From Hydrogenophaga taeniospiralis CCUG 15921 (lineage in GTDB: Bacteria; Pseudomonadota; Gammaproteobacteria; Burkholderiales; Burkholderiaceae_C), in assembly GCF_001592305.1 (NCBI RefSeq), contig NZ_BCWR01000006.1, positions 124,001-188,000 on the forward strand: 64,000 nucleotides of DNA. Reading direction: 5' to 3'. Of the stretch, positions 2,689 to 56,476 are shown piece after piece (position 1 is the stretch's first letter; every line of letters starts with the position of its first letter). The notes under the pieces are model-generated. The model saw only the letters and a program-made list of their open reading frames with translations, had not been told where the DNA came from and made no database searches. Both the position numbers and the translations under genes were made by a program.

Positions 2689-5600
2689 TCAGGCCGCGGG
2701 TGCTTCGTACTTTTTCCGGTACACCGCGTAGTACAGGACGGGGATCACGACCAGGGTCAGCATCGTCGACACCGCGATGCCGAAGATCAGCGACACGGCC
2801 AGGCCGTTGAAGATCGGGTCGTCGAGGATGAAGAAGGCGCCCATCATGGCGGCCAGGCCGGTCAGCGCGATGGGCTGCGCGCGCACCGCGGCGGACTGCA
2901 CCACGGCCTCGGCAAAGGGCACGCCGCGCTGGGTTTCCAGCTCGATGAAGTCCACCAGCAGGATGGAGTTGCGCACGATGATGCCGGCCAGCGCGATCAT
3001 GCCGATCATGCTGGTGGCGGTGTACTGCGCGTTCAGCAGCGCGTGGCCCGGCATCACGCCGATGATGGTCAGCGGGATCGGCGCCATGATGATCAGCGGC
3101 GTGAGGTAGCTCTTGAACTGCGCCACCACCAGCAGGTAGATCAGGATCAGGCCCACGCCGTAGGCGGCGCCCATGTCGCGGAAAGTCTCGTAGGTGATCT
3201 GCCACTCGCCGTCCCATTTCACCGCGTACTGGCGGTACGGGTCCTTGGGCTGGCTGATCCAGTACTCGCCCATCTCGCCGGTGTTGGGCAGCGCGGCTTT
3301 GTCCATGGACGAGCGGATGCCGAACAGGCCGTAGAGCGGCGAGTCCAGCGAGCCGGCCATGTCGCCGAACACGTAGGTCACGGGCAGCATGTCCTTGGTG
3401 TAGCGCGGCTGGTCGATCACGCCGCGTTCCACCGTGACCAGTTCGGACAGCGGCACCATGGCGCCGTTGGCCGCCTTCAGGGGCAGGGCGAGCAACGCAT
3501 CCAGGCCGATCTGCTGGTCCAGCGGCAGCTGCAGCCGCACCGGCACGGCGAACTTGGCGTGGCCGTCGTGCAGGTAGGCGGCGTCCGAACCGGACAGCGC
3601 GGCGTAGACGGTCTGCGCGATCACCTGCACCGGAATACCGAGCGATTCGGCACGCTGGCGCTGGATGCGCAGGAAGGCGCGCGGTGCGTGTTCCTTGAGC
3701 GAGGTGTCCACGCCCACGATGTCGGGCGTGTTTTTGTAGGCCTGGGCCACGCGCTGCGCGAGTTCGGCGCGGCCGGCCTGGTCGGGGCCATAGACCTCGG
3801 CCACGATGGGCGACATCACCGGCGGGCCGGGCGGCACTTCCACCACTTTCACGCGGGCGCCGTGGGCGGCCGCGATCTGCTCCAGCGCGGGCCGGTGGCG
3901 CTGCGCGATGGCGTGGCTCTGCTCGCTGCGGGCGTGCGCGTCGATCAGGTTGACCTGCAGGTCGCCGCCTTCGGCTTCGGCGCGCAGGTAGTACTGGCGC
4001 ACCAGGCCGTTGAAGGTGATGGGGCTGGCGGTGCCGGCGTAGCCCTGCACGTTGGCGACTTCGGGCTGTGCGGCGAGGTAGGCCGTCATGTCCTGCAGCG
4101 CGGCGGTGGTGCCTTCAAGCGGCGTGCCGGCGGGCATGTCGACCACCACCTGGTACTCGCTCTTGTTGTCGAAGGGCAGCATCTTCAGCACCACGCCCAC
4201 GAAGGAGTTGGGCACCAGCGCCAGGCTCACCGAGAGCAGCAGCGCGCCAGCGATGCCGGCCGCCAGCAGCCAGCGCTTTTTCGGGCTCTGCAGCAGCGGC
4301 GTGAGGATGCGCGTGAACGTGCTTTGCAGCGTGCGCGTGATCTTGCCCGGGCCGTGGGCGGCGTGGCCCTCACCGGTCTTGGTGAGCTTGAGCGCGAGCC
4401 AGGGCGTGACGGTGAAGGCGATGGCCAGCGAGATCGCCATGCCCATGCTGGCGTTGATCGGGATGGGGCTCATGTACGGGCCCATCAGGCCGGTCACGAA
4501 GGCCATGGGCAGCAGGGCCGCGATGACGGTGAAGGTGGCGAGGATGGTGGGACCGCCCACTTCGTCGACCGCGCGCGGGATGATCACCGTGAGCGGCACG
4601 TCGGGCGTGAGCATGCGGTGGCGGTGGATGTTTTCCACCACCACGATGGCGTCGTCCACCAGGATGCCGATGGAGAAGATCAGCGCGAACAGCGAGACGC
4701 GGTTGAGCGTGAAGCCCCAGGCCCAGCTGGCGAACAGCGTGGCCGTGAGCGTGAGGATCACGGCCGCGCCGACGATCACCGCCTCGCGCCGGCCCAGCGC
4801 CAGCCCCACCAGGATGATCACGCTGCCGGTGGCAAAGATCAGCTTCTGGATCAACTTGTTGGCCTTGGCTGCGGCGGTCTCGCCGTAGTCGCGCGTGATG
4901 GCGACTTCCACGTCGTCCGGGATCACGGTGTTCTTCAGGTTGTCCAGCCGCTCGCGCACGCCAGCGGCCACGTCCACCGCGTTTTCACCGGGCTTCTTGG
5001 TGACGGTGATGGTGACGGCCGGGTGGTTCTGGCCTTGTTGTCCGGCGTGGGCCGCGTCGGCGGCGCCGGGCGTGAACCACACGTAGCGCTGCGGCAGCTG
5101 GGCGCCGGCTTCCACGCGCGCCACTTCGCGCAGATAGATGGGTCGCCCGTTGGAGACACCGACCACGATGTCGCCCACGTCTTTCGCGTTCTGCAGGAAT
5201 TCGCCGGTTTCCACCGACAGCATGCCGGGCTCGCCCGCCGCAGGGCTGGGGTTGACCACCGAACCCGAGGGCATGGCCTGATTGGCCGAGGCAATCGCGC
5301 CCTGCAGCGCCTGCACGCTCACGCCGCGCTCACGCAGCTTGGCGGGCTCCAGCCACACATGCACCGCGCGGCCCGGGCCGCCGATGGTGACCACCTCGCG
5401 TGTGCCGGGCACGCGCTTGAGCTCGGTCTCGACCGCGTGCGCCACCCGCTCCAGGTCCATCGCGCTCTGAGCGTCTTTGGTCCACAGCGTGGCGGCGAGC
5501 ACCGGCACGTCGTCGATGCCCTTGGGCTTGACGATGGGCGTGAGCACACCCAGGCCCTGGGGCAGCCAGTCCTGGTTCGCGTTGAGCACGTCGTACAGGC

Positions 5601-9925: not shown

Positions 9926-10654
9926 TCAGCCTTGGCGCAGTTGCGCGAGTTCGTGGGTGAGCACGCGTTCGTTCTTCACGAAATAGCGGTGCAGTTCGCG
10001 CAGCTTGAGCAGGCGGACTTCTTCGTCGTTGATGAGTTCGAGCTGGGAGCGCACGCGGGTGAGCATGAGCTTGAGGCTGAGCACCCGGATGTCCAGCCCC
10101 ATCTCGGCGTTGAGCAGACGCATCCAGACCGGGTCGGTCAGGTCGGGCACGTTCGGGTGCCCGGGCTCGTCGGCCCAGGGCGCGCGGGGTGCCGCCGCCG
10201 GCGACGCGGCCACCGGTGCCTCGGCGACCCCGCTGGGCCGGCCGCTGTCGATGGCGTAGCGGTAGCGCCAGACGTCCTGCAGGCTCAGGTCCATCAGCGT
10301 GCACACCGACTGCAGCGACACGCCCTGGTTGAACATGGCGAACACGCGCTGCGACAGCGCGCGCGTGAAGGGCATGCCCGGCTCGCCCAGCCACTCCAGG
10401 CCGGGGTGGTGCTGCCCCGGCGGCAGCGCGACGTGCAGATGGCACTGGATCGGCCCGATGGACAGGTGGCGCCAGGATCCGGTCAGCGTGGAGGCCGCCG
10501 GCTTGCGCTCGCGCCCGAACCAGCCGCGCTCCACCTCGGGCGCCACCCAGACGTCGCAGCGCCGCTTGCGCGGGTCGAACTGGTATTCGCGCACCTCCCA
10601 GGGGCGCTCGATCAACAGCAGTTGCCGCAGCAGCGCCTTGTCGATACTGATCAT
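9926..10654 (-). CDS. hypothetical protein with ISL3-transposase-like N-terminal region
   Basis: A 242-residue soluble protein. Residues about 15-135 (RPWEVREYQFDPRKRR..., WRHLSIGPIQCHLHV..., FTRALSQRVFAMFNQGVSLQSVCTLMD, each in part) follow the order of the zinc-binding and helix-turn-helix N-terminus of ISL3-family transposases, but most zinc cysteines are missing and no DDE core follows. After an Ala/Pro linker (about 150-175) the C-terminal 65 residues form a long charged helix, probably a coiled coil. A domesticated DNA-binding protein is my inference. It is the first gene of a two-gene unit preceded by a sigma-54-like element at 10733-10748. Start ATG is at 10652-10654, with GAGGAGA upstream. 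Confidence 0.72.
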   Translation of the reverse strand: MISIDKALLRQLLLIERPWEVREYQFDPRKRRCDVWVAPEVERGWFGRERKPAASTLTGSWRHLSIGPIQCHLHVALPPGQHHPGLEWLGEPGMPFTRALSQRVFAMFNQGVSLQSVCTLMDLSLQDVWRYRYAIDSGRPSGVAEAPVAASPAAAPRAPWADEPGHPNVPDLTDPVWMRLLNAEMGLDIRVLSLKLMLTRVRSQLELINDEEVRLLKLRELHRYFVKNERVLTHELAQLRQG

Positions 10655-11123
10655 GGGGTTTGTCTCCTCGGTTGTTTGAGTTGGGGTGAGGCCATCCGGG
10701 TGTGACACAAACACCCCGGACGCGGCCGGGACCGCAATTGCCGTTCCACGTCCTGCAGCGGGCCGCCGCGGACCCCTGAAGCGGCGGCCCTCCGTGACGC
10801 TGTTCACGCCCGGCCCCCGAATGCGCGGGCGCTCCCGGGGTCGGCCCGGCCCGGGGTCGCCCGGCCGGGCACCGGGCCCCGGGCTGGCCCTGCGTTGCAG
10901 GGGAACAGCTGCGCCAAACTGGCACAAGCGAAGCGCCCCAGCGGGTACATCGCGGGGCTCAAACGGGGCCGCGCAAGGCCCCGAGCAGTACACACTTGGT
11001 ATTACAAGCTGTCACATTTGGCGTGCTATAACCAATGCCTCGTTGGAGACCAGAGGTCGCTCGCTCACCCACCCCCACGGCGCCCAGCCTGGGCCGTCAC
11101 GCCGCACAAGACCACAACAATCC
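10655..11123. other. intergenic region between divergent units
   Basis: This 469-base gap separates the minus-strand unknown pair from lplT. It contains the sigma-54-like element at 10733-10748, a very GC-rich self-complementary stretch (about 10830-10890) and a more AT-rich stretch at 10990-11040 with TATAAC. The last probably holds the lplT promoter, but I see no convincing -35 at correct spacing. No ORF here looks coding. Confidence 0.6.
10733..10748 (-). promoter_or_regulatory. sigma-54-like -24/-12 element
   Basis: On the minus strand the bases read TGGAACGGCAATTGCG, giving GG-N10-GC with TTGC at the -12 box. One position of the consensus TGGCACG-N4-TTGC is altered. It lies about 80 bases upstream of the unknown gene starting at 10654. 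A chance match is possible at this GC content. Confidence 0.45.
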
Positions 11124-12590: not shown

Positions 12591-13566
12591 AGAACCCGAT
12601 GTTGGTCGGCTGGAAGTCTTTCATGCTCACCAGCCGGTGCCGGGCCAGCACCTTGTACAGATCGGCCTCGTTCACCGCACGGGGCAGATAGGCGTCGCTG
12701 CCGGCCAGGCCCGCCTTGATGCGGTCCATGCTGCCCGCCGTGGGCGCGAACATGATCACCACCGGGCTCTGTCCATCGGCCAGCTTGCGCTGCTTGGCGC
12801 CCCGGCAGATCTGGTAGGCGTCGGGCTGGCCGTTGAGGCGGTCGATCACCACCACCCGGTAGGTGTTGGCCTGCAGCAGGGCCAGCGCCTGGGGCGCCTC
12901 GCGCGACCAGTCGATCGTGAGCCCGTATTTCTTGAAGCGCTTGTGCAGGATGCGGCCTTCGACCAGGCTTTCGGCCACCAGCAGCAGGTCGTTGCGCGGC
13001 AGCTCGGGCAGCGCCGCCGGGGTCTTGCCACGGGTGGACTTCGACGCTCGCGCCGTTGCCGCGCGGGGCGCCGAGGACGCCCCGGGCAGCTCTTCCAGGC
13101 CGCCGAAGTCGGACAGACCCATCACGCCGGGGCGGGCCGCCCGCGCCGATTCCGCGGCCGTCGGTGCGGCGGGCCGCCGCACCATGACGCGGGTCGGAGG
13201 GAACTCGGTGGCGTCCAGGCGGCGGGCCGCCGGTGCCCGGGCCGCGGCGTCGCCGATGCGCACGCCCACCAGGGCGTCGAGCAGGCCCAGCACCGACACC
13301 AGCTTGACCGGCTTGCGCTGCAGCGGCCAGCCGGTGCCACCGTCGCTGTGCCCCACCAGCAGCACCTGGCCCGGCAATCGGGCCTGGCGCACCAAGTGCA
13401 GGGCCTGCATGTTGTCGGCGTTGACGATCAGCAGCTGCGCGTCCGCCACGTCGGCCTGCACCCGGTACTCGGGCGGGCGCCGCGCCGCGAGCCGGAAAAA
13501 CGATTCGAAGGTGGTGGACTCGCTGTCCGTGAAACCCACCAGAGCCACTGAGTAACTATTGGCCAT
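12589..13566 (-). CDS. response-regulator-like protein with C-terminal REC-type domain
   Basis: A 325-residue cytoplasmic protein. An N-terminal alpha/beta region (about 1-110) is followed by an Ala/Pro/Arg-rich linker (110-200) and a C-terminal receiver-like domain (about 205-315: NDLLLVAESLVEGRILHKRF, then YRVVVIDRLNGQPDAYQICR, then PVVIMFAPTAG). The usual phospho-acceptor region reads VVVIDRLNG, so an aspartate is in the right place, while the N-terminal acidic pair is not obvious. No output domain is attached. The N-terminal part may be a second, degenerate receiver. The partner kinase is not in this window. ATG at 13564-13566. Confidence 0.75.
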   Translation of the reverse strand: MANSYSVALVGFTDSESTTFESFFRLAARRPPEYRVQADVADAQLLIVNADNMQALHLVRQARLPGQVLLVGHSDGGTGWPLQRKPVKLVSVLGLLDALVGVRIGDAAARAPAARRLDATEFPPTRVMVRRPAAPTAAESARAARPGVMGLSDFGGLEELPGASSAPRAATARASKSTRGKTPAALPELPRNDLLLVAESLVEGRILHKRFKKYGLTIDWSREAPQALALLQANTYRVVVIDRLNGQPDAYQICRGAKQRKLADGQSPVVIMFAPTAGSMDRIKAGLAGSDAYLPRAVNEADLYKVLARHRLVSMKDFQPTNIGF

Positions 13567-13739: not shown

Positions 13740-14222
13740 ATGTCCAGCATCTACGACTTTGAAGCCCGGTCCATCGACGGCGAGCTGGTTCCGCTGCAAC
13801 AGTTCAGGGGCAAGCCGCTGCTGATCGTCAACACCGCCAGCGCCTGCGGTTTCACGCCGCAATTCGGCGGCCTGGAACAACTGCACCAGGCTTACGGCCC
13901 GCGTGGCCTGGTGGTGCTGGGCTTCCCGTGCAACCAGTTTGGCCAGCAGGACCCCGGCAGCGACGAGGAGATCGCCACCTTCTGCCAGCGCAATTTCGGC
14001 GTCACCTTTCCCATGATGAGCAAGATCGACGTCAACGGCCCCGAGGCCCATCCGCTCTACCAGTGGCTCAGCGCCGAGGCGCCCGGCCTGCTGGGCAGCA
14101 AGGCCATCAAGTGGAACTTCACCAAGTTCCTGGTGGGCAAGGACGGGCGCGTGCTCAAGCGCTACGCCCCGCAGGACGCGCCGCAGAAGCTGGCCTCGGA
14201 CATCGAAGCGGCCCTGCTCTGA
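13740..14222 (+). CDS. glutathione/thioredoxin peroxidase (GPx family, Cys type)
   Basis: A 160-residue thiol peroxidase reducing hydroperoxides in the cytoplasm. The motif NTASACGFTPQ gives peroxidatic C36. FPCNQFGQQ supplies the conserved Gln and a second cysteine (C64), and KWNFTKFLV supplies the Trp/Asn pair of the catalytic tetrad. It is a cysteine, not selenocysteine, enzyme. ACAGGAG lies seven to eight bases before the ATG at 13740. It is divergent from the REC-like gene, with 173 bases between them. Confidence 0.95.
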   Translation: MSSIYDFEARSIDGELVPLQQFRGKPLLIVNTASACGFTPQFGGLEQLHQAYGPRGLVVLGFPCNQFGQQDPGSDEEIATFCQRNFGVTFPMMSKIDVNGPEAHPLYQWLSAEAPGLLGSKAIKWNFTKFLVGKDGRVLKRYAPQDAPQKLASDIEAALL

Positions 14223-14741
14223 CCCCGCCGCGCAGCCAGGCGCCGCCCGCGCCCTGAGCCTGCCGCGCGCCCCTTTTCAAGCCTCCGGATCCCGTGCGCC
14301 CAGCGCGCCGGGAGGGGCAATCCTGCGCGCCAACCACACCGCGAACCCGTCAAGCATTAAAGCTTTATTAAAACACTAGGGATTACAGGCAAAACAACAA
14401 CGAATTGTTACAGAAACTTAAATTTCCCACAACCTGGCGAAACACCATGATATTTTCCCAATTGCAACCGTTTGTTTTGAGCTTTTCTCCACCACCAGCC
14501 CGATTTCCCGCACCGGCCGCGCGCCCCGGTGCATGGCTGGACACCGGAGCCGCCTGAAGCGGCCACGCCACCGCCCCGAGGGTCTGGTGGCCCCGCGCGG
14601 GGTCGACGCCTCCCCAGGAGAGCCCAGAAGAGCCGGTCAAAGGCATTGAGGTGGTCCCACCAGACCACCGGTACCCAGGTTGGGACCCGTGTCGCGATCC
14701 CCCGTTGCAGGCCCCATCGACAACCACAGCGCAACCGTTCC
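14223..14741. other. intergenic leader of the GTPase/Roadblock cluster
   Basis: These 519 bases have no supported gene. The first part is GC rich with partly self-complementary CCTCCGG/CCGGGAGG (about 14280-14325). Bases 14345-14485 are unusually AT rich (ATTAAAGCTTTATTAAAA, AATTGTTAC, AACTTAAATTT), which makes this the likely promoter region of the downstream operon. I could not fix a -35/-10 pair with good spacing. Confidence 0.55.
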
Positions 14742-15140
14742 ATGCGACACAGCCGTCTTCTGTCCACCAACGCCACGTCCCAGCTGGGCCCCCAGTTCGC
14801 CGTGTTGCGTCTGCGCTCCTGGCCCGATCTGCGCCACGTCTCGGACCGCCTGACCCCCGACGTGATCCGCATCTGCGCCCTGCTGGCGATCCGGCCCACG
14901 GGCGCGCCCCTGATCCACCGCCTGCTGGACATGCCGCGCGAACGTGCCCAGCACGTCGTGGACATGCTCTACCTCCACGGGCATCTGAGCGACGGCGCCC
15001 CGGCTGCCCCCCTGGAAAAGAAGGAAGAAGCCCCGGCCATCGCGGCGCCCGGGGTCCAAGCGCCCAAAGAGGTTCCCCCTTCGGTGACCGGTTTTCTGGA
15101 TCGTTTCCGGAAAAAGCTGCTGCCCGCCGGAGCGCACTGA
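14742..15140 (+). CDS. small winged-helix-like protein, first gene of the GTPase/Roadblock cluster
   Basis: A 132-residue protein of unknown family. Residues about 30-85 (LTPDVIRICALLAIRPTGAP, then LIHRLLDMPRERAQHVVDML) look like a winged-helix fold and resemble the N-terminal part of the protein at 19038-19595 in the same cluster. A Pro/Ala/Lys-rich linker and a short basic amphipathic tail (FLDRFRKKLLP) follow. The start at 14742 is chosen because upstream in-frame sequence is low-complexity, but no strong ribosome-binding site is visible. Its stop lies one base before the next start. A role as a DNA-binding or protein-docking adaptor is inference. Confidence 0.6.
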   Translation: MRHSRLLSTNATSQLGPQFAVLRLRSWPDLRHVSDRLTPDVIRICALLAIRPTGAPLIHRLLDMPRERAQHVVDMLYLHGHLSDGAPAAPLEKKEEAPAIAAPGVQAPKEVPPSVTGFLDRFRKKLLPAGAH

Positions 15141-15141
15141 G

Positions 15142-15699
15142 GTGGAGTGCTCCGTTCTGTTCATGGGCCCGGTGGGCGCCGGCAAGAGCATGGCCGTGCA
15201 GACCCTGTCGGACATCGACGTGCTCGACACGGACGAGCGCGCCACCGACGAGACCGCCGCGTACAAACAGAACACCACCGTCTGCATGGATGCCGGGGTG
15301 CTGGAGCTGGGTTCCGGCGACAAGGTGCGGCTGATCGGCGCGCCCGGCCAGGACCGCTTCGACTTCATGTGGGACATCCTGCTGCAACAGGCCCGCGCGG
15401 TCATCCTGTTGCTGGACCACAGCCGGGTGAGCCGGCTGGAAGACCTCGACCATTTCATGGACCGCCTGGGCGAGCGTCTGGTGGGTCGCAAGCTGCCCCT
15501 GGCCGTCGGCATCACGCATGTCGAACTGCTCCCGGAGCTGTCGCTGGGCATCTACCGCCGTCGCCTGCGGGAACGCGAAGACAGCTTCCCGGCCTGCGTG
15601 GTGCCGGTGCTCCCGGTCGACGCCCGCGAAAAAAAGGACATGCAGACACTGGTGCTCACCGTGGCGGCCATGCTCGAAATGATGCACCGCTATGGTTAA
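15142..15699 (+). CDS. MglA/Cvn-type small GTPase
   Basis: A 185-residue Ras-like P-loop protein. The G1 loop is GPVGAGKS (residues 9-16). The G3 region is APGQDRF, with PGQ in place of the usual DxxG, as in MglA and actinobacterial conservon GTPases. The G4 position reads THVE (125-128) instead of NKxD, so guanine specificity may be changed. A G5-like PVDARE lies near 158. Prokaryotic GTPases of this type are controlled by Roadblock/LC7 proteins, and several are encoded just downstream. The gene overlaps the next by eight bases (ATGGTTAA), implying translational coupling. It is predicted to act as the switch of the cluster. Confidence 0.85.
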   Translation: MECSVLFMGPVGAGKSMAVQTLSDIDVLDTDERATDETAAYKQNTTVCMDAGVLELGSGDKVRLIGAPGQDRFDFMWDILLQQARAVILLLDHSRVSRLEDLDHFMDRLGERLVGRKLPLAVGITHVELLPELSLGIYRRRLREREDSFPACVVPVLPVDAREKKDMQTLVLTVAAMLEMMHRYG

Positions 15700-17074
15700 T
15701 GTGTCCCTGCGTCTGCGCGGATTCGGTCTGGCCTACGACGACCGCGTGGTCTTGCGCGGCATCGACCTGGATGTGCCCGCGCAAGGCTGCACCGTGCTGC
15801 TCGGGCCGGCCGGCACAGGCAAGTCGTCGCTGCTGCGCACCCTGGCCGGGTACAACGACAACAACCCCAGCCTGCGTGTCTGGGGCCAGCTGCAGTACCA
15901 GGGTGCCGCCCGCACCCCCGACCACCAGCCGGCGCTGGTGGTGCAGAAGGCCCAGTTGCTGGTGTCCACGGTGCTGGACAACCTGCTGAGCGGCCTGCCC
16001 GACCGCTCCCGGCTGACGCGCGCGCAGCAACTGGACCGTTTGCGACAGATAACCGGGGAGTTGCACCAGGCGTGGATCATGGACCGCCTGCACACCTCGG
16101 TCCTGGACCTGAGCCTGCCGCAGCAGCGGGTGATCGCCATCCTGCGCGAGTTCCTGGGCCGGCCGGCCCTGCTGATGCTCGACGAGCCCACCACCGGCCT
16201 GAGCGACGACGAGGCCGACGGCCTGGCGGACTTCATCGAAGACATCGGCCGCCAGCAGGCCATGCTGCTGGTGCTGCACCACCTGCGGCTGACCCGCCGG
16301 CTGGCCCAGCATGTGGTGCTCATCGCGAGCGGCCGGACCCAGGAAAGTGCACCCACCGAGCGCTTCTTCGACCAGCCGCAGAGCGAGGCCGCCTGCCAGT
16401 TCATCCGCACCGGTTCCTGCCCGGAGTTTTCGCCTGCGCAGGAGGCGGATGCCCTTCCCGATGAACCCGCGGCGCCACCCCGGACCCCCTGCCTCTCCAC
16501 GCTGGTCAGCGCGGCGAGCGGCCCACGCGGGTTCGCCTGGCTGCTGCCCGGGCGACTGGCGGGCACGCCATGGCCGGGCCTGATCCGGGAGACCGAAGAC
16601 GATCTGGGCGCGCTGCGCCACGTGGGCGTCACCCGGCTGGTGAGCCTGACCGAGCAGGCGTTTCCAGAGGCGCTGGCCGCGCGCTTCGGCCTCCAGTGCG
16701 CCAGCCTGCCCATCGCCGACATGCAGGCGCCCACCCTGGCCCGCGCGGCCGCCCTGTGCAACGACATCGACCACTGGCTGCGGGCGGGCGAGGTGGTTGC
16801 CCTGCACTGCAAGGCCGGCCTGGGCCGCACGGGCACCCTGCTGGCCGCCTATTGGCTCTGGCAGGGCAATGGCCAACGCAGCGCGCTGGAGAGCATCGAC
16901 CGCATCCGCCGGCTGGACGCCGCCATGATCCAGGCCCCCTCACAGACCGCATTCCTGTCTGGCTTCGCCGACTTCCTCAGCCGGCGACCGTATCCCCCCC
17001 TCACGACCTTGGGTAATGGTCGATTCCACAAAAACGATTCCCCTGAAAGGAAATTCCCTCATGAACAAACTTGA
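15692..17074 (+). CDS. ABC ATPase domain fused to dual-specificity/tyrosine phosphatase domain
   Basis: A 460-residue two-domain protein. Residues 1-240 are an ABC ATPase with Walker A GPAGTGKS (38-45), a Q-loop near Q85, a degenerate signature LSLPQQR (about 140-146), Walker B ALLMLDEP (159-166) and H-loop LHH near 196. Residues about 275-435 are a cysteine phosphatase with P-loop HCKAGLGRTG (372-381) and a probable general acid D343 in IADMQAP. No membrane helices and no permease gene nearby, so transport is unlikely. The ABC half may act as a molecular switch or scaffold. The phosphatase would act on phosphoproteins, perhaps of this cluster. It overlaps both neighbours (8 and 14 bases). 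Confidence 0.88.
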   Translation: MVNVSLRLRGFGLAYDDRVVLRGIDLDVPAQGCTVLLGPAGTGKSSLLRTLAGYNDNNPSLRVWGQLQYQGAARTPDHQPALVVQKAQLLVSTVLDNLLSGLPDRSRLTRAQQLDRLRQITGELHQAWIMDRLHTSVLDLSLPQQRVIAILREFLGRPALLMLDEPTTGLSDDEADGLADFIEDIGRQQAMLLVLHHLRLTRRLAQHVVLIASGRTQESAPTERFFDQPQSEAACQFIRTGSCPEFSPAQEADALPDEPAAPPRTPCLSTLVSAASGPRGFAWLLPGRLAGTPWPGLIRETEDDLGALRHVGVTRLVSLTEQAFPEALAARFGLQCASLPIADMQAPTLARAAALCNDIDHWLRAGEVVALHCKAGLGRTGTLLAAYWLWQGNGQRSALESIDRIRRLDAAMIQAPSQTAFLSGFADFLSRRPYPPLTTLGNGRFHKNDSPERKFPHEQT

Positions 17075-17468
17075 CGACACCCTGCAACGCGCCATGACCG
17101 GCATCCCCGAATGCCTGGCCGCTGGCATGGTGGACCTCGCCTCCGGCATGGTGCTGAGCATCAAGACCGTCGACTCCCACCCCTCCGAGGTGTTCGACAT
17201 GCTGGCCGCGGCCACGTCCGACCTCTTCCAGGGCCCCAACGTCGTGGCCATCGAGAAGGTGTTCAAGAAGTCGCGCGGCCTGCCCGAGAGCGTGGACCAC
17301 CACTACTTCCAGGAAATCATCGTCAACAGCGAGAACCTCATCCACGTGTTCCTGCGCAGCAAGCGCCAGCAACAGGTGGTCTGTTTCGTCTGCCGCAAGG
17401 GTGCCAACCTGGGCATGGTGCTGACCAAGGCGCGCTCGGCCATGCCGGCCGTCGAAGCCGCGCTCTGA
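17061..17468 (+). CDS. Roadblock/LC7-like protein 1
   Basis: A 135-residue protein with the alpha-beta-beta-alpha-beta-beta-beta-alpha pattern of Roadblock/LC7 domains: MNKLDDTLQRAMTGIPECLAAGMVDLASGM (in part), then a helix with FDMLAAATSDLF, then strands IIVNSENLIHVFLRS and QQVVCFVCRKGANLGMV. Such domains bind and regulate Ras-like GTPases, as MglB does for MglA. The start at 17061 has AAGGAA eight bases upstream and overlaps the preceding stop by 14 bases. The GTPase at 15142 is the likely partner; that is inference from family and position. Confidence 0.82.
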   Translation: MNKLDDTLQRAMTGIPECLAAGMVDLASGMVLSIKTVDSHPSEVFDMLAAATSDLFQGPNVVAIEKVFKKSRGLPESVDHHYFQEIIVNSENLIHVFLRSKRQQQVVCFVCRKGANLGMVLTKARSAMPAVEAAL

Positions 17469-17485
17469 TCGGGTCAGGACGGCCC

Positions 17486-17881
17486 ATGAACACCCTGTTG
17501 ACCCAAGACGCCCTGGCCAGTCGGGCTCGGGGCGTCCTGCGCAGCCTCCACGCCGGCCTCGCCGAGGTGGAGGCCTCGGCGGTGGTAACCCGCGACGGCT
17601 TCACCATCGCCTCGCTGCTGTCCACGGGCACCGACCCGGACCGCTTCGGTGCCATGTGCGCATCGCTGCTGGCGCTGGCGGCCCGTGCCAGCAGGGAAGT
17701 GGACCGCGGCAATCTGCGCCAGATCATTCTGGACGGCCAGCAAGGCCCGCTGTTGCTGACCCACGGGGGCGACTCGGCCGTGCTGGCCGTGGCCGCCACC
17801 CCCCGCGCCAACCTCGGGCGCCTGATTCTCGAGACCCGCCGGGTGGCGACCGATCTGGCGACCCTCTGGGCGCAGGCCTGA
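17486..17881 (+). CDS. Roadblock/LC7 domain protein 2
   Basis: A 131-residue single-domain Roadblock/LC7 protein. The core AELEASAVVTRDGFTIAS-type strand pair is seen as VEASAVVTRDGFTIASLLS, followed by a helix (CASLLALAARASREV) and the strands LRQIILDGQQGPLLLTHGG and AVLAVAATPRANLG. This resembles MglB and the Roadblock proteins of actinobacterial conservons more closely than the first copy does. It sits 17 bases after copy 1 and eight bases before the globin fusion gene. It likely forms homo- or heterodimers with the other copies and contacts the GTPase. Confidence 0.88.
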   Translation: MNTLLTQDALASRARGVLRSLHAGLAEVEASAVVTRDGFTIASLLSTGTDPDRFGAMCASLLALAARASREVDRGNLRQIILDGQQGPLLLTHGGDSAVLAVAATPRANLGRLILETRRVATDLATLWAQA

Positions 17882-17888
17882 GTCCGCT

Positions 17889-18998
17889 ATGAACCCGATC
17901 CAGTACCAGGGGCAGTCCCTTCGCTGCCGAGAAGACGAAAGCCTGCTGGACGCCTTCGTGCGCACCGGCGTGGCGATCGACTTCTCGTGCAAGAGCGGCG
18001 TCTGCCGCCGCTGCCTTGTCAAGGTGCTGGACGGGGCGGCGCCGGCCGAGGCCGCCCGCTCGCTGCCCACCCATCTTCAGTCGGCAGGCTATGTGCTGGC
18101 CTGCCAGTGCAAGCCCTCCGGCCCCCTGAGCCTGGCGCCCAAGTCGCCCGCGGACATGCTGACGCAGTGCATGCTGGTGCGGCGCGAGCACCGGCCCGAC
18201 GGCAGCTCCGTGCTCGGTTTCGAGGCCGCCACCGAACTGGCCTTCACCGTGGGTCAATCGGCCCAGCTGTTCGACGGCCCGTTCTCTTCCCCGGTCACCG
18301 TCCGCCTGACCGGGCGGGACGAGGCCCAGGGACTGATCCAGGCCGAGGTGGCGCACGATGTGCTGCCCCAGGCCGCGTTTTCCGATGACGCGCTATTCGG
18401 CGCCGACTTCCAGCTGCGCGGACCGTTCCCGCTGGAGCCCGAAGACGAGGCCCTGTTGCCCGAACCCGATCTGGCGCTGTGGCAGCTGCTGGAGCACGGC
18501 CGGCTGGTGCGGCGGGTGCTGGAGGCCTTCTACCAGAAGGTGTACGCCGACCCCCTGCTCCAGCCCTTCTTCGAGCGGGTCTCGATGGAGCGGGTCATCG
18601 GCAAACAGTATTCTTTCCTCATGCAGTGCATGACGGGCGACAACGTCTACATCGGCGAGCGCCCGAAAAATGCCCACCACTGGATGGTCATTCCCGACAC
18701 GCTGTTCGAACACCGCCAGCGCCTGATGGCCCAGGCGCAGCGCGAACAGGGCCTGACGCCGGAGCAGATGGCCGGCTGGAGCCGCTTTGAGGAACACTTC
18801 CGCGCCGACATCGTCAAGCACGCGCCCTGGCCCAGGCGCATGGGCGATCAGATCATCGAAACCGAGCGCTACGACAGCGTCACCCTGGACGAGGGCACCG
18901 TCTGCGACCACTGCGGCGCCGAGATCGCCGCGGGCAGCACCGTGCGTTTCCACCTCCGGCTCGGGCAGGTCGGCTGCCCGAGCTGCGAGCGCGGCTGA
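17889..18998 (+). CDS. 2Fe-2S ferredoxin - truncated haemoglobin - zinc ribbon fusion protein
   Basis: A 369-residue multidomain protein. Residues 1-85 are a plant-type ferredoxin (C34-x4-C39-x2-C42, fourth ligand C72). Residues about 90-185 look like a degenerate reductase-type beta-barrel (VGQSAQLF...SPVTVRL). Residues about 193-325 are a truncated haemoglobin: AFYQKVYADPLLQPFF, then KQYSFLMQCMTG, with proximal haem His at H263 in NAHHWMVIP. Residues 335-369 form a zinc ribbon with C339, C342, C363 and C366. Electron transfer from the cluster to haem, or O2/NO sensing, is plausible. It lies eight bases after Roadblock protein 2, inside the GTPase cluster. I know of no standard name for this architecture. 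Confidence 0.9.
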   Translation: MNPIQYQGQSLRCREDESLLDAFVRTGVAIDFSCKSGVCRRCLVKVLDGAAPAEAARSLPTHLQSAGYVLACQCKPSGPLSLAPKSPADMLTQCMLVRREHRPDGSSVLGFEAATELAFTVGQSAQLFDGPFSSPVTVRLTGRDEAQGLIQAEVAHDVLPQAAFSDDALFGADFQLRGPFPLEPEDEALLPEPDLALWQLLEHGRLVRRVLEAFYQKVYADPLLQPFFERVSMERVIGKQYSFLMQCMTGDNVYIGERPKNAHHWMVIPDTLFEHRQRLMAQAQREQGLTPEQMAGWSRFEEHFRADIVKHAPWPRRMGDQIIETERYDSVTLDEGTVCDHCGAEIAAGSTVRFHLRLGQVGCPSCERG

Positions 18999-19037
18999 AC
19001 CGCTTTCACCCATGCCCCTCAGCGCCCGGCGACACCG

Positions 19038-19595
19038 ATGAACCCGCCCGCCCGCCACCTGCACGTCCGGCCCCAGGGCATCACCGAGTGGATGACGCTG
19101 GCGCCCGATGCGCGGCGGCCGGATCAGCGCCTGTTCCGGGCCCTGTTGCGGCAGTCTCACGACACCACGGTGGTGGACGTGGGGCGGCTGAGCCAGAGCA
19201 GCGGCCTGTCGCGCAGCGAGGTGGCGCGCTCGTTGTTCGGCCTGCATCGGCTCGGCAGCATCCACGTGTCCGTCGACGCACCAGCGGTGCCCCACGCAAC
19301 GGGCCACCCGGCCGCGGACATCCACCAGCAGTTGCAACGGCTCTGCGGCGACACGGCCGGCGCGGCCGTGCTGGCCGACCCCGATGGCCTGTGCCTGACG
19401 AGCCATGGCGTGGCGCACGAGCACGCCCAGGGCCTGGCCGCCGGGTTCGCGCACTTTCGCCATGCCATGGTCCGGGCCATGCCGCTCTACATCGGACGCC
19501 GGCCCTGCCGGCTGCACATCACCTCTTCGGCGCTGGTCGCCCACGAGGCCCTCGTGGGCCTGGTGCGAAGCCTGCACACGCTGCTGGCGGACTAG
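19038..19595 (+). CDS. winged-helix plus Roadblock-like protein 3
   Basis: A 185-residue protein. Residues about 1-80 (LFRALLRQSHDTTVVDVGRL, then SGLSRSEVARSLFGLHRLGS) form a winged-helix-like region that resembles the 132-residue protein at 14742. Residues about 92-183 have a Roadblock-type strand-helix order (AGAAVLADPDGLCLTSHG, helix with HFRHAMVRAMPL, strand CRLHITSSALVAHEALVGLV). It may tether the GTPase module to DNA or to another partner. It starts 39 bases after the globin gene. A repeat copy separates it from the next gene. Confidence 0.72.
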   Translation: MNPPARHLHVRPQGITEWMTLAPDARRPDQRLFRALLRQSHDTTVVDVGRLSQSSGLSRSEVARSLFGLHRLGSIHVSVDAPAVPHATGHPAADIHQQLQRLCGDTAGAAVLADPDGLCLTSHGVAHEHAQGLAAGFAHFRHAMVRAMPLYIGRRPCRLHITSSALVAHEALVGLVRSLHTLLAD

Positions 19596-19602
19596 GATGA
19601 AA

Positions 19603-19736
19603 CACCCCCCGCGCCGCTTCGCGTCACCCCCCTCAAGGGGGGCGGCACTGGCCGTCCGGCAAAGCCGGCCCGGCGGTGCCTCTGGGTGGCGTTGTTTCAT
19701 GCGTCGCGGGTGGCGCTCCGGCGCCGTGGAAAACTG
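19603..19736. repeat. dispersed intergenic repeat, copy d (inverted partner of copy e)
   Basis: About 130 bases between the third and fourth Roadblock genes. It carries the CACCCCCCTCAAGGGGGG core, GGCCGTCCGGCAAAGCCGG and a distal GTGGCGCTCCGGCGCCGTGG. The reverse complement of almost the whole segment recurs at 21567-21695. It lies in the operon without disrupting a frame, and the Roadblock 4 start codon is two to three bases beyond its end. Confidence 0.75.
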
Positions 19737-19738
19737 AC

Positions 19739-20095
19739 ATGCCCGAGATCCAGGACATCCTTGACCAGATCACCGAATGCCCCGGCAACGCCGGCGCGGT
19801 GCTGGCCACCGCCGATGGCCTGCTCATGGCGTCCGCGGGCGCCTTGCACGGCGACGTGGCCGCCGCCGCCGCCGCAAGCCTGGCGCTGGCAGGGCAAGAG
19901 GCGCTGGCGGCACTGGGGGAGCGACCCTGGGCCGAGCAGTTGATCTGGTCCGACACCCAGGTCTGGTACCAGACCCAGTTGCGCGGCACCCACGTGCTGC
20001 TGCTGGTGAGCGACGACCACGGCCACGCCGGCGCGCTGCGCTGGACCGCGCGGCGCATGGCGCAGCAGCTGGAGCCCAGCCTGCTTCAGCTGTGA
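19739..20095 (+). CDS. Roadblock/LC7-like protein 4
   Basis: A 118-residue Roadblock-like domain: MPEIQDILDQITECPGNAGA in part, strand AVLATADGLLMASAG, an alanine-rich helix with LALAGQEALAAL, then strands QLIWSDTQVWYQTQ and THVLLLVSDDHG. It is the last gene of the cluster and is convergent with the WYL-type regulator ending at 20106. The start at 19739 is chosen because the preceding in-frame codons lie in the repeat. Whether it is cotranscribed through the repeat is not certain. Confidence 0.75.
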   Translation: MPEIQDILDQITECPGNAGAVLATADGLLMASAGALHGDVAAAAAASLALAGQEALAALGERPWAEQLIWSDTQVWYQTQLRGTHVLLLVSDDHGHAGALRWTARRMAQQLEPSLLQL

Positions 20096-20105
20096 CGCCG
20101 CCGCG

Positions 20106-20792
20106 CTATGGATGCTCGGCCTGGTACTGCCGCAGCAGGTCGGCCAGCGTCTTGCCCGGCTCGTCCGCGTAGCGGCGCGGCAGCGGACGCACGCTCTGGA
20201 TGCGGTCGGCGCGAAAGCTGCGAAAGGCCTGCCGGGTTTCGCACCAGGCCGCCAGCGTCCACACCTTGCCCCAGAAGAAGCAGCCCAGCGGCCACACGGC
20301 GCGGGTGCTGGGCTGCTCGTTCACGTCGCGGTAGTCGAGCTCCAGCACCGTGCGCGTCTGCGCGGCCTCGCGCAGCACCTGCAGCACCCGGGCCACGCCG
20401 GGTTTGAGCCCCAGCGGTGGCACCAGCAGCGGCATCTTCTCCACCTCGGTGCGCACCACCCCGGGCAGCACCGACAGCACGCGCGACATGGCGTCGCCCG
20501 CGGCCAGCGCCAGCGCCGGGTCCAGCCACTGCTGCGCGATGCGCGTGGCCACGGCCAGCGCACGGGCCTCGTCGGCTGTGAACATGAGCGGTGGCAGATC
20601 GAAACCGCGCCCGAACCGGTAACCCACGCCGGCCTCGCCCTCGATGGGCACACCCTGCGCCTGCAGGTCGGCCACGTCGCGGTACACGGTGCGCGGCGAC
20701 ACCTCCAGCCGCCCGGCGAGCCAGGCGGCGGTGGACAGGCGCCGGCCACGGATCAGCTGCACCAGGGCAAAGAGGCGGTCGGCGCGTCGCAT
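20106..20792 (-). CDS. WYL-domain transcriptional regulator (YafY family)
   Basis: A 228-residue DNA-binding regulator. An N-terminal HTH of the HTH_11/DeoR kind (RRADRLFALVQLIRGRRLST, then LEVSPRTVYRDVADLQAQGV) is followed by a C-terminal WYL-type ligand domain (VLELDYRDVNEQPSTRAVWP, then WTLAAWCETRQAFRSFRADR). Length is normal. It starts at the ATG at 20790-20792, five bases after the DUF6151 gene stop, so the two are one unit. The ligand is unknown; YafY-type regulators often control the adjacent gene. Confidence 0.9.
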   Translation of the reverse strand: MRRADRLFALVQLIRGRRLSTAAWLAGRLEVSPRTVYRDVADLQAQGVPIEGEAGVGYRFGRGFDLPPLMFTADEARALAVATRIAQQWLDPALALAAGDAMSRVLSVLPGVVRTEVEKMPLLVPPLGLKPGVARVLQVLREAAQTRTVLELDYRDVNEQPSTRAVWPLGCFFWGKVWTLAAWCETRQAFRSFRADRIQSVRPLPRRYADEPGKTLADLLRQYQAEHP

Positions 20793-53897: not shown

Positions 53898-53979
53898 GCA
53901 CAACGTTCGAGCTACGCGGGCGAGAGCGGTAGGACGCCAGACCAAGCTGGTGGCCTACCGACGGGCGCCGGAGTTAGGC
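53898..53979 (-). repeat. attC-like site at the island edge
   Basis: An 82-base imperfect palindrome. On the minus strand it begins with GCCTAAC (a perfect RYYYAAC) and ends GTTGTGC (GTTRRRY with one mismatch), with an inner stem GGTAGG/CCTACC. The stop codon TAA of the gene at 53974-54825 lies inside GCCTAAC, the classic position for an integron gene cassette. No integrase gene is in view. Pairing of the inner boxes is weak, so the call is tentative. Confidence 0.5.
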
Positions 53980-54825
53980 ATCACCCCCATCCCAGTGCTT
54001 GCGTCCGCCTCTCCATGTTTGTGTTTGAAGAACCACGGTCCTAACAATCATCAACCTTGCACATAGTGGGCGAAAGAGACTCTCTTCAACTTTCTTTTGC
54101 ACAGCCTTAAGTTTCTTGTCAATTACATATTTCTTAAGCGCATATATGCCAACCAGAACGACTGAACCTAACCAAGGCAACGAAGAATAGGTAGCAGTTA
54201 GCCCTTCTATTGCGCCTTTGGAAATAGCCGAGTACCCAATGCCAAGAACGAGAATCGGCACAAGAAATATGAAGGAGTGAAACTGAAGAAACACTCTCAC
54301 ACGGGCTCGAAGGTACTGTGCATAGATCGCGAATATCTTCGAGTCGACCCACAGCCCGGCCCAAGACATACCGCGCCAGACTGGTGACATATCAAGGCTG
54401 ATCGCTTCCAAGTCAAGAAGCTCCCCGTAGATGTCTTCTGCCGCCACGGCAAGTGGCGATTTGTCAACCCGAAGTCTGGCGATACTTGCGGCAAGTTCCC
54501 TCTGATGGATCTCGTCGACTTGCCTTCGGTCGCGCTCCCACTTTGCGCTCTGCGTCGCGAGAGTGCGATACCGCCAGAAGTCTTTCCATGACCATTTGAC
54601 GCTGAGAACAATGTCGCGCCGCACAAGTGCAAATTCCTTCTTCAGCACGTCGAGCGCCACCTCATGTTGCAGCGTCCCGAGACATTGCTGTACTTTTAAG
54701 AAGGCGTCAGTGATGCTCTTGAACTTCTTGAGCGGCTCAGAGCTACCAAGACGCTTTGACTCTTGGCCGAAATGCTCAATCTGCTCGTGAATGTATCGTT
54801 CCAGCGGATTGCAAGAGGAAATCAT
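53974..54825 (-). CDS. AT-rich hypothetical protein with two membrane helices (cassette-like)
   Basis: A 283-residue protein of unknown family. Residues 1-170 are charged and helical (FGQESKRLGSSEPLKKFKSI; WKDFWRYRTLATQSAKWERD). Two membrane helices are seen (about 185-205 VFLQFHSFIFLVPILVLGIG and about 220-238 LPWLGSVVLVGIYAL), then a basic tail. Codon use is much more AT rich than the neighbours, a sign of transfer. Its stop codon falls in an attC-like box, as in integron cassettes. No function can be assigned; phage defence or a toxin-like role is only a possibility from context. Confidence 0.7.
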   Translation of the reverse strand: MISSCNPLERYIHEQIEHFGQESKRLGSSEPLKKFKSITDAFLKVQQCLGTLQHEVALDVLKKEFALVRRDIVLSVKWSWKDFWRYRTLATQSAKWERDRRQVDEIHQRELAASIARLRVDKSPLAVAAEDIYGELLDLEAISLDMSPVWRGMSWAGLWVDSKIFAIYAQYLRARVRVFLQFHSFIFLVPILVLGIGYSAISKGAIEGLTATYSSLPWLGSVVLVGIYALKKYVIDKKLKAVQKKVEESLFRPLCARLMIVRTVVLQTQTWRGGRKHWDGGDA

Positions 54826-54988
54826 GGCAGTTATAAAGCCAGTCTAGGTTGTACGGCTAAATGAATGAAAGGGCCTTTCCCGTCCCCAACGATCCGCGCA
54901 GTTGCGGGGTATTGCATCCAGGTGCCACGATGAGAAGTGCGAGCCCTCATCAACTCATTCGCTTTTTGGAAGGGGGTGGTCCATCGCA

Positions 54989-55087
54989 ATGGTATCTCTT
55001 GGCGTCGATCTGGCAAAGAACGTCTTTGCTGTTCGCTGCGTTGACTTTCGGGGGAAGCCTTTGCAACTTTGCAAGATCCGGGATTGA
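54989..55087 (+). pseudogene. IS110-family transposase remnant
   Basis: A 32-codon frame encoding VSLGVDLAKNVFAVRCVDFRGK, the start of an IS110-type (DEDD) transposase including the first catalytic Asp in GVDLAKN. It ends after RD and a stop; the rest of the roughly 340-residue protein is absent. It is a decayed insertion-sequence fragment in the AT-rich island. Confidence 0.65.
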
Positions 55088-55129
55088 AGCGCAAGAAATA
55101 TACCGATCCCTATTGGAGCACCTGTTTAA

Positions 55130-56476
55130 TCATCTACCGGCTTGCCATAAGAAATAAAAGTCATTTTTTCTTGCCTCTTGTTTTTCCTTGAGAGTTTGAT
55201 TGAACTCCAAAAGAGGACCAACAACGGCCGAGGTGCCACCCAAGGCAGCAACAATATCACCTATATTCGAAGGCAATACGCCTCCATACAACCCAAAAGA
55301 CGCAGTTGCAACTCCAAATAGCACCTTTTCGGCAATTGATGTGCGAGAGTTTTCTTTCCAGTCCTTGATCTTCTTGTCAATTATATTGATTTCAGGAAGA
55401 ATTTCGTCGCGAAATATTTTTGAAACTTCTTCTTCATTCCATTGACGAGTTTCCCTCATTAATTTATTTAACTTATCTCGATAAACTGCAAAAGCTTCTT
55501 CCTCTTTTTTACGCAGATCAAGAATAGAAGAAACCTGCGCGAAATGAACGGTAGGCAAATAATGCTTCATCGCATTCTCAAATGCCGCCGAGTTTGCAAT
55601 ATAAGCCTTCGAGTTAATCTTGGATGCAACTTTTAAGCTGGTTCTATTGTCGCAAAGATATGAAGTCCCGTTAAGAGCGGAATGCCATTCTTGAATTGAT
55701 AGATCATGCACAATCGGCCCAACTATTTGATGCAGGATGTTGCACTCTTGTACTTCATCTTTTTCAAGGCTATATGGCGCTGATTTCTCCATAAATGGCA
55801 AGAACAAACTGGATATGGGCGCGTGAGCGTGAAAATATATTGCTCCGTGCTCGATGATTTCCTCAGGGCCAGTAACTTCGAAAAATGGTTTGGCTTTGTT
55901 TCCGCCCACGAAGTCAAATGTTACCTTGCATCGCTCGAGCATAAAACCTTCTAAAGCCTGATATAGCTTTTCCTCTTTTTTGGCGATGGAAGCTGAAAGA
56001 GGCTTGGCAATCTTCTCGGCGTGCAGGTCGCAAAAACTAGCGTTTACAGAAGCATACTTAATTAAGCCAATATCAATCAAAGGCTTAAGATATAAATAGT
56101 TGGATATACCAGATAGAACCTCTTCACGTTCAATCTCCCGAATAGGTCGATCGCCTCGCAGGTATACGGATTCAAATGGACTCTGAATATACACCTCATC
56201 CGCATAAAGGGACGCAAACGAAACGAGCTGATCCAACTTTCTCTTTCTACACTCGCGTGCCGAGCAAGGATGCGGCCCTCCACTTAATGCGGAATTAGCG
56301 ATAAAGGAGAAGTTTTCGTTAGACGATCCACCAGAGCCAAAATGATGCCTTGATATTAGGGATGCGACTTCAACAAACTCGAAAAGATCTTCCTCCGCAC
56401 TATTGAATACGGCATCTCTTATATTACCCTCACCCCAGAGAGCAATAGCCTCATCCATTTCTTTTATAAATTCCAT
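55130..56476 (-). CDS. large AT-rich hypothetical protein
   Basis: A 448-residue protein of unknown family. It is soluble-looking and helical, with a charged coiled region (about 325-385, RKKEEEAFAVYRDKLNKLMR) and a hydrophobic segment near 388-418 (FGVATASFGLYGGVLPSNIG). Cysteines cluster in CSARECRKRKL near residue 75 and C-rich spots later. Codon use is strongly AT rich against the host background. GGAG lies six bases before the ATG at 56474-56476. I found no catalytic motif. An island cargo gene, perhaps defence related, is inferred from position only. Confidence 0.75.
   Translation of the reverse strand: MEFIKEMDEAIALWGEGNIRDAVFNSAEEDLFEFVEVASLISRHHFGSGGSSNENFSFIANSALSGGPHPCSARECRKRKLDQLVSFASLYADEVYIQSPFESVYLRGDRPIREIEREEVLSGISNYLYLKPLIDIGLIKYASVNASFCDLHAEKIAKPLSASIAKKEEKLYQALEGFMLERCKVTFDFVGGNKAKPFFEVTGPEEIIEHGAIYFHAHAPISSLFLPFMEKSAPYSLEKDEVQECNILHQIVGPIVHDLSIQEWHSALNGTSYLCDNRTSLKVASKINSKAYIANSAAFENAMKHYLPTVHFAQVSSILDLRKKEEEAFAVYRDKLNKLMRETRQWNEEEVSKIFRDEILPEINIIDKKIKDWKENSRTSIAEKVLFGVATASFGLYGGVLPSNIGDIVAALGGTSAVVGPLLEFNQTLKEKQEARKNDFYFLWQAGR

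Follow-up and report, generated by a model that had tools for sequence, protein, structure and literature searches.

An eight-gene cluster of Hydrogenophaga taeniospiralis as a possible enlarged Group 3 MglA system with a ferredoxin-globin protein and an ATPase-phosphatase fusion

The window analysed here, a stretch of 64,000 nucleotides from the 5.3-Mb genome of Hydrogenophaga taeniospiralis CCUG 15921 (G000; contig NZ_BCWR01000006.1, positions 124,001 to 188,000), contains at positions 14742-20095 a run of eight plus-strand open reading frames (ORFs), g1 to g8, which are separated by gaps of 1-143 bp and overlap twice. We suggest, at about even chances, that these genes encode a signalling system of the Group 3 MglA type that has been enlarged, is informed by haem or redox state and has a phosphatase as its output. 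The MglA-type GTPase g2, the fusion of an ATP-binding cassette (ABC)-type ATPase with a phosphatase g3 and the small protein g4 are linked across genomes, in most cases together with the MglB-type protein g5, and the ferredoxin-globin protein g6 is linked with g3 and g4.

In the sections of PMC4316618 on which we draw, Group 3 MglA proteins are defined by a TT pair, the motif GTPGQ, a G4 motif that departs from [NT]KxD, in many cases through loss of the lysine, and the motif DAR. The window g2, a GTPase-like P-loop protein by its match to PF03029, carries GPVGAGKS, TT, GAPGQ, THVE and DAR, and these features recur in an alignment of 50 sequences, comprising the window and the 49 of 50 matches that score above 180 bits. 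A threonine of G2 (NTTV in the window) stands in place of the arginine finger, with TT present in all 50 sequences, and G3 is without its aspartate, PGQ being invariant in a looser form of the published motif (GTPGQ 42, GAPGQ 6, GSPGQ 1, GLPGQ 1), where the window belongs to the minority with alanine rather than to the GTPGQ consensus. The window G4, THVE, is degenerate, and some relatives have TKTD among the 12 commonest variants listed; at G5, DAR is found at residue 160 of the window protein, DxR in 48 of the 50 sequences and DAR itself in 21. Left out of the motif counts given here and below were one g2 match below 180 bits, four g5 matches below 80, ten g4 matches below 26 and two Ruegeria g4 rows just below 150.

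A typical Group 3 system comprises, according to the same sections, a protein with receiver-like and winged helix-turn-helix parts, one MglA and one or two MglBs, and Group 3 MglA occurs almost only in beta- and gammaproteobacteria, including Neisseria and Xanthomonas (PMC4316618). The coupling to MglB is found in g5 and g8, both of which are assigned to the Robl_LC7 family. Among structures of the PDB, g5 matches Roadblock chains (best 2.8e-16) as well as cvnB5 (4.1e-7), and the Asp-Gly pair of MglB is kept in 46 of 47 g5-type sequences, while g8 matches the g5 profile with a probability of 94.9% in profile-profile comparison. The winged-helix partner is probably g1, which has no meaningful match in Pfam (best 0.21) and matches the C-terminal part of the upstream partner proteins from nine other loci at 96.1% in profile-profile comparison. 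It is only this C-terminal, winged-helix half of the upstream partner of g2-type GTPases that g1 matches; at the locus L171, a 382-aa protein of the longer partner type lies directly before g2. A two-domain receiver-like protein encoded on the minus strand at 12592-13566, the N-terminus of which matches the N-terminal half of the partner (92.9%, single-sequence query), was a candidate for the receiver half that g1 lacks and was dropped because it does not track g4, being present in 10 of 100 genomes of the family, of which only the H. taeniospiralis genome has g4.

The closest named relative found at the cluster locus is Hydrogenophaga sp. A37 (L039), where homologues of all eight genes are present in the same order as in the window, with protein identities of 83-99% (g1 90%, g6 90%, g7 83%). 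Third codon positions hold the most differences between the two loci in each of the eight genes, the pattern that selection on coding sequence should leave. The 135 codons of g4 differ at 3, 0 and 14 first, second and third positions, respectively, and the pattern is least clear for g7 (16, 16 and 23).

Gene order was compared at the 27 g4 loci of the close family that lie outside the window (19 from the family draw of genomes, six from the class draw, G058 and L039; a further g4 place of the order draw, G133:C30, stands outside this count). Genes in the fetched loci were called with a guanine-cytosine (GC)-based caller and as stop-to-stop ORFs, and genes on the strand of g4 at a distance of up to 3 kb from it were counted as neighbours. 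By this measure, g3 is found near g4 at 24 of the 27 loci, g2 at eight and g6 at five, and at the g4 loci of other families (L049, L169-L172, L174 and L175) g3 is present in 7/7, g2 in 6/7 and g6 in 3/7. Apart from L039, the trio g2-g3-g4 occurs at L049, L090, L169, L170, L171, L172 and L175, six of which come from other families (f10, f115, f133, f174, f230 and f205). The order is g2, g3, g4, g5, g6 and a Roadblock gene at L170; the 382-aa partner protein, g2, g3, g4, g6 and g5 at L171; and g2, g3, g4, a small CxxCxxCC-type protein and g6 at L169, where the interposed gene (10268-10663, minus strand) encodes a zinc- or iron-chelating protein of PF03692. In addition, divergent g4 relatives lie within g2-g5-g4 clusters at 9 of 13 loci (12 of the 15 genomes with divergent g4 only were fetched, together with a second copy from G705; G546, G583 and G690 were left out), which indicates that a g4-type protein accompanies MglA and MglB even where g3 or g6 is absent.

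The presence of g6 across genomes follows that of g4. In the family draw, g6 was found in at least 7 of 200 genomes and g4 in 16, and all seven genomes with g6 have g4; in the class draw, g6 was found in at least 5 of 369 genomes and close g4 in eight, and again all five genomes with g6 have g4; the order draw holds g4 in 4 of 150 genomes, including both with a strong g6 (H. taeniospiralis and G058). With the H. taeniospiralis genome excluded and relatedness ignored, the probability of this co-occurrence by chance is 6e-8 for the family and 5e-8 for the class, and within the seven of the family, as within the five of the class, each g6 genome belongs to a different genus. The cut-offs for g6 were 1e-25 in the family draw and 1e-40 in the class draw, with at most ten or five candidates, respectively, scored per genome, so that some g6 genes may have been missed. 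In the order draw, a search at 0.001 gave a match somewhere in 132 of 150 genomes, of which the weaker ones listed cover just the ferredoxin or just the globin part, and g6 was counted only in H. taeniospiralis and G058 (1e-60; next best 7e-19).

All 13 genomes with g6 (the seven of the family draw, four more, G058 and that of L039) contain at least one g4 with a neighbouring g3. A g2 at 1e-15 is present in five of the seven g6 genomes of the family draw (23 of 200 overall), and since all seven have g4, g6 appears to depend on g3-g4 more than on the GTPase. Conversely, g3-g4 does not appear to depend on g6, and this is the pattern expected of an added input. The globin part, which the first-pass annotation of this DNA had counted as a component of one system, thus follows the ATPase-phosphatase and g4 rather than the GTPase; as regards conserved neighbours, the annotation's proposal of a single system is supported by g2-g3-g4 at six of the seven other-family loci and by g4-g6 at three.

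The window g6 consists of a ferredoxin domain (Fer2, 8.9e-13), a globin domain (Bac_globin, 4.8e-9) and a C-terminal CxxC...CxxC motif. The four ferredoxin cysteines, 34, 39, 42 and 72, are invariant in the seven full sequences, as for a [2Fe-2S] cluster, and the globin belongs with truncated haemoglobins, its match in the PDB being of group 1 (3.1e-7). Residues ~90-185, between ferredoxin and globin, look like a remnant of the flavin adenine dinucleotide (FAD)-binding barrel of a ferredoxin reductase from which the nicotinamide adenine dinucleotide (NAD) domain is absent. An alignment of 13 globin parts shows the terminal four-cysteine motif and His264 in all 13 and His263 in 12; either histidine is a candidate for the haem ligand. 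The length of the chain varies among relatives: those of L169, L170 and L173 have a complete Fer2-FAD-NAD-globin chain, those of the window, L039, L041-L044 and L047 have no NAD domain and no FAD domain that can be recognised, that of L045 has Fer2 and globin only, and that of L171 is reduced to globin and knuckle. The globin and the knuckle are constant across the 13 sequences, which fits a change of g6 from a reductase-fed enzyme to a sensor. In which direction domains were lost cannot be read from a tree of the globin parts, where 3 of 16 inner branches have good support and the NAD-less g6 of G058 groups with the complete forms. In G157, a genome that is 65% complete, two fragments at contig ends (N-terminal part at L137, C-terminal part at L046) were taken to be a single g6 gene. 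A structure prediction for g6 from two sequences reached a mean predicted local distance difference test (pLDDT) score of 40 and was not used, and a search of plasmids with g6 returned 76 records, none covering 80% of it.

The same series of forms bears on the most serious alternative, namely that g6 is an enzyme, a nitric oxide (NO) dioxygenase or another oxygen (O2) or redox enzyme comparable to flavohaemoglobin, which would be an output rather than an input, with the other parts regulating it, localising it or sharing a stress with it. We regard this as unlikely, though some observations favour it: three relatives carry the complete electron-transfer chain, and at 11 loci of the order level (L005-L014 and L017) separate truncated-globin ORFs adjoin ORFs for Fer2-type reductases. 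Furthermore, Tyr215 and Gln240 of g6 align with the same residues of these separate truncated globins, and we take them to be B10 and E11, with a role in NO dioxygenation. However, what has been kept constant in the 13 sequences is the globin with its knuckle and not the electron supply. As an observation in its own right, the globin and reductase pairs of L005-L014 and L017 form the unfused counterpart of the complete g6.

The proposed output, g3, is composed of a soluble ABC-type ATPase (residues ~1-245; ABC_tran, 2.2e-15) and a phosphatase of the dual-specificity/protein tyrosine phosphatase (DSP/PTP) type (residues ~278-399; PF22785, 8e-21). In all 25 aligned proteins, the window included, Walker A, Walker B, the Q-loop and the H-loop are intact, as are the phosphatase signature HCxxGxGRTG, which contains the HCx5R of PTP and DSP enzymes, and the general-acid aspartate. 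The ABC signature LSGGQ is found in none of the 25, and no permease is matched in Pfam by any of the eight cluster proteins. In the PDB, the phosphatase part is closest to 25xa (5e-20) and also matches DUSP23 (2e-15). Among the fetched loci, the phosphatase part is encoded by 24 ORFs, all of which carry the ABC part as well, and this constant fusion suggests that the ATPase may control the phosphatase.

Its neighbour g4 is conserved at 58-72% identity to other close-family members of the family draw and is Roadblock-like by profile comparison, matching the g5 profile at 88.8% over 114 columns (84.3% over 56 columns when only close relatives are used). In 44 of 44 sequences, [ST]G (SG 32, TG 12) replaces the DG pair of MglB. 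A homologue 61% identical to g4 is encoded at 5001-5402 of a contig from the viral collection IMG/VR (L189), where profiles of g1, g2, g3C, g5 and g6 found nothing else in 10 kb. On Ruegeria plasmids (L148-L150), a g4 relative of 35-38% identity lies inside a conserved cluster that also encodes four dynamin-family proteins, a protein kinase, an FHA protein, a PP2C phosphatase and two substrate-binding proteins; here the g4 relative is again beside nucleotide switches and protein phosphorylation.

Several observations weigh against an enlarged Group 3 system. With regard to the Roadblock nature of g4, Pfam gives nothing up to an E-value of 1, the profile of g8 is matched at only 15.4%, a profile search of the PDB returns no Roadblock chain and instead six unrelated chains (E 0.03-0.43), and a structure model from three sequences is unusable at a mean pLDDT of 46. 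With regard to linkage, g3 is missing near g4 at L131, L140 and L147 (3/27), and at own-family g4 loci outside the window the GTPase is nearby in only 2/20 and g6 in 2/20, which implies that neither is obligatory for g3-g4. In seven genomes (G293, G167, G235, G274, G328, G058 and G710) g6 lies away from g4, and in the six compared, all but G710, no shared neighbour was found at a shared position, with scattered matches to ABC ATPases and other ORFs near g6. As to g6 itself, the candidate proximal histidine His263 is a proline in L039, and the complete reductases of L169, L170 and L173 are possibly enzymes, not sensors.

Some of these observations would also suit three independent modules (GTPase and Roadblock proteins; ATPase-phosphatase and g4; globin) that are chance neighbours in Hydrogenophaga and share no common pathway: most own-family g3-g4 loci are without GTPase and g6 nearby, and the g6 genes of L041-L045 and L047 have no shared neighbours. 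We consider this improbable, given that g2, g3 and g4 recur together in six other families and that g3-g4 is present in 13 of the 13 genomes with g6. Equally doubtful is a biological-conflict system, anti-phage or inter-bacterial, with a phosphatase effector that a nucleotide switch would set free. In its favour, the distribution is patchy, the names of PF22785 and PF22784 refer to polymorphic toxin and 'Swiss Army Knife' proteins, g4 homologues occur on the viral-collection contig and, distantly, in the dynamin, kinase and PP2C clusters of the Ruegeria plasmids, and g3 matches mad3 (4e-11) and mad8 (7e-9) of PADLOC over parts of its ATPase. Against it, the PADLOC matches cover only short pieces of the ATPase domain and the other seven proteins have none, the recognisable neighbours of the g3-g4 pair (read from translations, unsystematically) look like ordinary chromosomal genes, and g4 is under very strong purifying selection, as seen in the absence of differences at second codon positions.

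For the enlarged Group 3 system, we tentatively propose a scheme, for which we would claim somewhat less than even chances, in which a haem or Fe-S signal passes through a dedicated Roadblock adaptor to a phosphatase driven by the ABC ATPase, the globin having turned from enzyme to sensor. The Ras-like GTPase g2, the MglB-type regulator g5 and the winged-helix protein g1 would form the older core, to which g3 with its adaptor g4 and, as a second addition, the ferredoxin-globin-knuckle protein g6 would have been joined. The haem of g6 would bind O2 or NO, or its [2Fe-2S] cluster would take up electrons, and the resulting state would alter how g6 engages g4. Acting as a Roadblock platform, g4 would convey this state to the g3 ATPase and, where present, to the GTPase g2 with its regulators g5 and g8, so that the nucleotide bound by each would respond. 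The nucleotide state would then switch the g3 phosphatase on a phosphorylated target, and may also release or bind the winged-helix protein. We infer that g6 is the input and binds haem and a cluster, as well as the protein contacts, the direction of the signal, its ligand (O2, NO or redox state) and its target. A hint on the input comes from L171, where genes for COX1, COX2 and SCO1 lie within 5 kb of the cluster, and another from the precedent of HGbRL, in which Methylacidiphilum joins a globin to a Roadblock domain.

For the target process we can offer a guess, retraction of type IV pili, prompted by what MglA does elsewhere and by the surroundings of two loci. Genes for pilT/pilU-like ATPases and a yggS-like gene (names read from translations) lie beside the g3-g4 pairs of L132 (G000:C19), which is the second pair of the H. 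taeniospiralis genome and has the order g4-g3, and of L174 (G510:C8), with the order g3-g4, the two being from different families. It tells against this link that only two close neighbourhoods among 27 loci show it and that they were noticed after the fact; a third pilus-type neighbourhood, at L144, is ~8.6 kb away. In Snodgrassella, colonisation of the gut was promoted, potentially through pili, by alleles of an orphan mglB from a Group 3 system, according to the part of PMC11112851 considered here.

When set beside known systems, the cluster is closest to Group 3 MglA as described in the sections of PMC4316618 used here, with which it shares TT, PGQ, the degenerate G4 and DxR, an MglB-type partner with the DG pair, a probable winged-helix partner and a proteobacterial host range. 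It differs in adding the ATPase-phosphatase fusion, a partner of the g4 family and the ferredoxin-globin protein, and in a g1 without the receiver-like half. The first-pass annotation knew of no named system with this set and proposed a nucleotide switch as the core; this core is supported, as an ancestral GTPase-Roadblock pair that can be named Group 3 MglA, but the cluster is not unlike every named system, since it represents the expansion of a class already published. Actinobacterial conservons (Group 2 MglA; CvnA-D) share the tight grouping of GTPase and Roadblock genes, and g5 matches CvnB5, but a histidine kinase such as CvnA is lacking (no kinase match among the eight proteins) and the ATPase-phosphatase and globin are present instead. 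HGbRL, a natural globin-Roadblock fusion in Methylacidiphilum, likewise couples a globin to a Roadblock domain and is presumed to be a sensor; in the passages of PMC4476040 available to us, its globin is akin to the HMP/VHb type rather than truncated and lies on one fused chain, its operon encodes a methyltransferase, and an MglA/MglB-like pair is encoded elsewhere. Flavohaemoglobins (Hmp-type NO dioxygenases) combine haem with a flavin and NAD electron chain, as do the complete g6 relatives, whereas the globin of g6 is truncated and C-terminal, the ferredoxin comes first, a zinc knuckle is present, and the window form has neither FAD nor NAD domain recognisable on the globin chain. With DUSP23/PTEN-type phosphatases, g3 shares the HCx5RTG signature and the general-acid aspartate, but its phosphatase is fused behind an ABC-type ATPase. 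The cluster would operate in the manner of an MglA/MglB or conservon switch, but it is not a conservon, not an ABC transporter and, in its window form, not a flavohaemoglobin.

The features of the eight proteins, assigned with Pfam and NCBIfam, are collected in Table 1. The first-pass annotation had described the position and packing of the genes correctly, and its GTPase (g2), its ATPase-phosphatase fusion (g3, by ABC_tran and PF22785), its ferredoxin-globin-zinc fusion (g6) and its last Roadblock protein (g8) are all recovered by domain matches. Of the two Roadblock proteins that it placed at g4 and g5, Pfam recognises the second, the first being reached only by profile comparison, and its winged-helix-like g1 finds support in homology to the C-terminal half of the larger family but not in Pfam. 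Its description of g7 as a winged helix joined to a Roadblock domain could not be confirmed in that form: there are sub-threshold matches only (HTH_IclR 0.04, LAMTOR5 0.027), the C-terminal half matches Roadblock with a profile probability of 0.5% (two sequences only) and the N-terminal part matches the winged-helix half at 17.7%, and a single homologue of g7, that of L039, was found among the fetched loci. The probable FAD-barrel remnant of g6 and a repeat between g7 and g8 are additions to the first-pass annotation.

Table 1. Genes of the Hydrogenophaga taeniospiralis cluster (window coordinates)
Gene	Position	Strand	Description
g1	14742-15140	+	132 aa; winged-helix type with basic C-terminal tail; from ORF, profile-profile comparison and homologues in L039 and L090
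g2	15142-15699	+	GTG start; MglA-type small GTPase; PF03029 3.3e-10
g3	15692-17074	+	overlaps g2 by 8 bp; ABC-type ATPase-phosphatase fusion
g4	17061-17468	+	overlaps g3 by 14 bp; 135 aa; highly conserved; Roadblock-like
g5	17486-17881	+	MglB-type Roadblock/LC7; PF03259 1.6e-16
g6	17889-18998	+	ferredoxin, probable FAD-barrel remnant, truncated haemoglobin, C-terminal four-Cys zinc-knuckle-like motif
g7	19038-19595	+	185 aa; fast-evolving; possibly winged helix and degenerate Roadblock; weak matches only
g8	19739-20095	+	Roadblock/LC7; PF03259 7e-6, above the Pfam cut-off

The flanks of the cluster look ordinary when read from their translations, with a transporter, a receiver-like protein and a glutathione-peroxidase-like ORF upstream and a regulator-like ORF on the opposite strand downstream. 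A promoter scan of 14200-20250 gave no sigma-70-like promoter, the upstream region, when aligned with that of L039, proved to be conserved in patches and to contain no nameable motif, and no Rfam match at gathering scores was present in 14000-20300. Between g7 and g8 lies a dispersed repeat of ~142 bp (19597-19738), which has at least 41 matches in the H. taeniospiralis genome including the window copy (40 of 334 candidates scored); in L039, g7 and g8 are almost contiguous, as deduced from the coordinates. Elsewhere in the window, a low-GC stretch on the minus strand at 53974-56476 (0.465 at 54001-56000), which holds one ORF of 283 aa and another of 448 aa, is a possible acquired island.

No paper describing this gene set was recognised in searches of the open-licence literature of PMC, where the only indication of an input or output for Group 3 MglA was a possible connection with the pili of a bee symbiont, as given in the part of PMC11112851 considered here. 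With its phosphatase and its protein of haem/Fe-S type, this natural variant provides specific candidates for the input as well as the output of the pathway. In addition, a Roadblock-like protein is here regularly paired with an ABC-type ATPase, not with a small GTPase, and the graded series of globin fusions, from a complete reductase to a bare globin, makes the question of enzyme or sensor directly testable.

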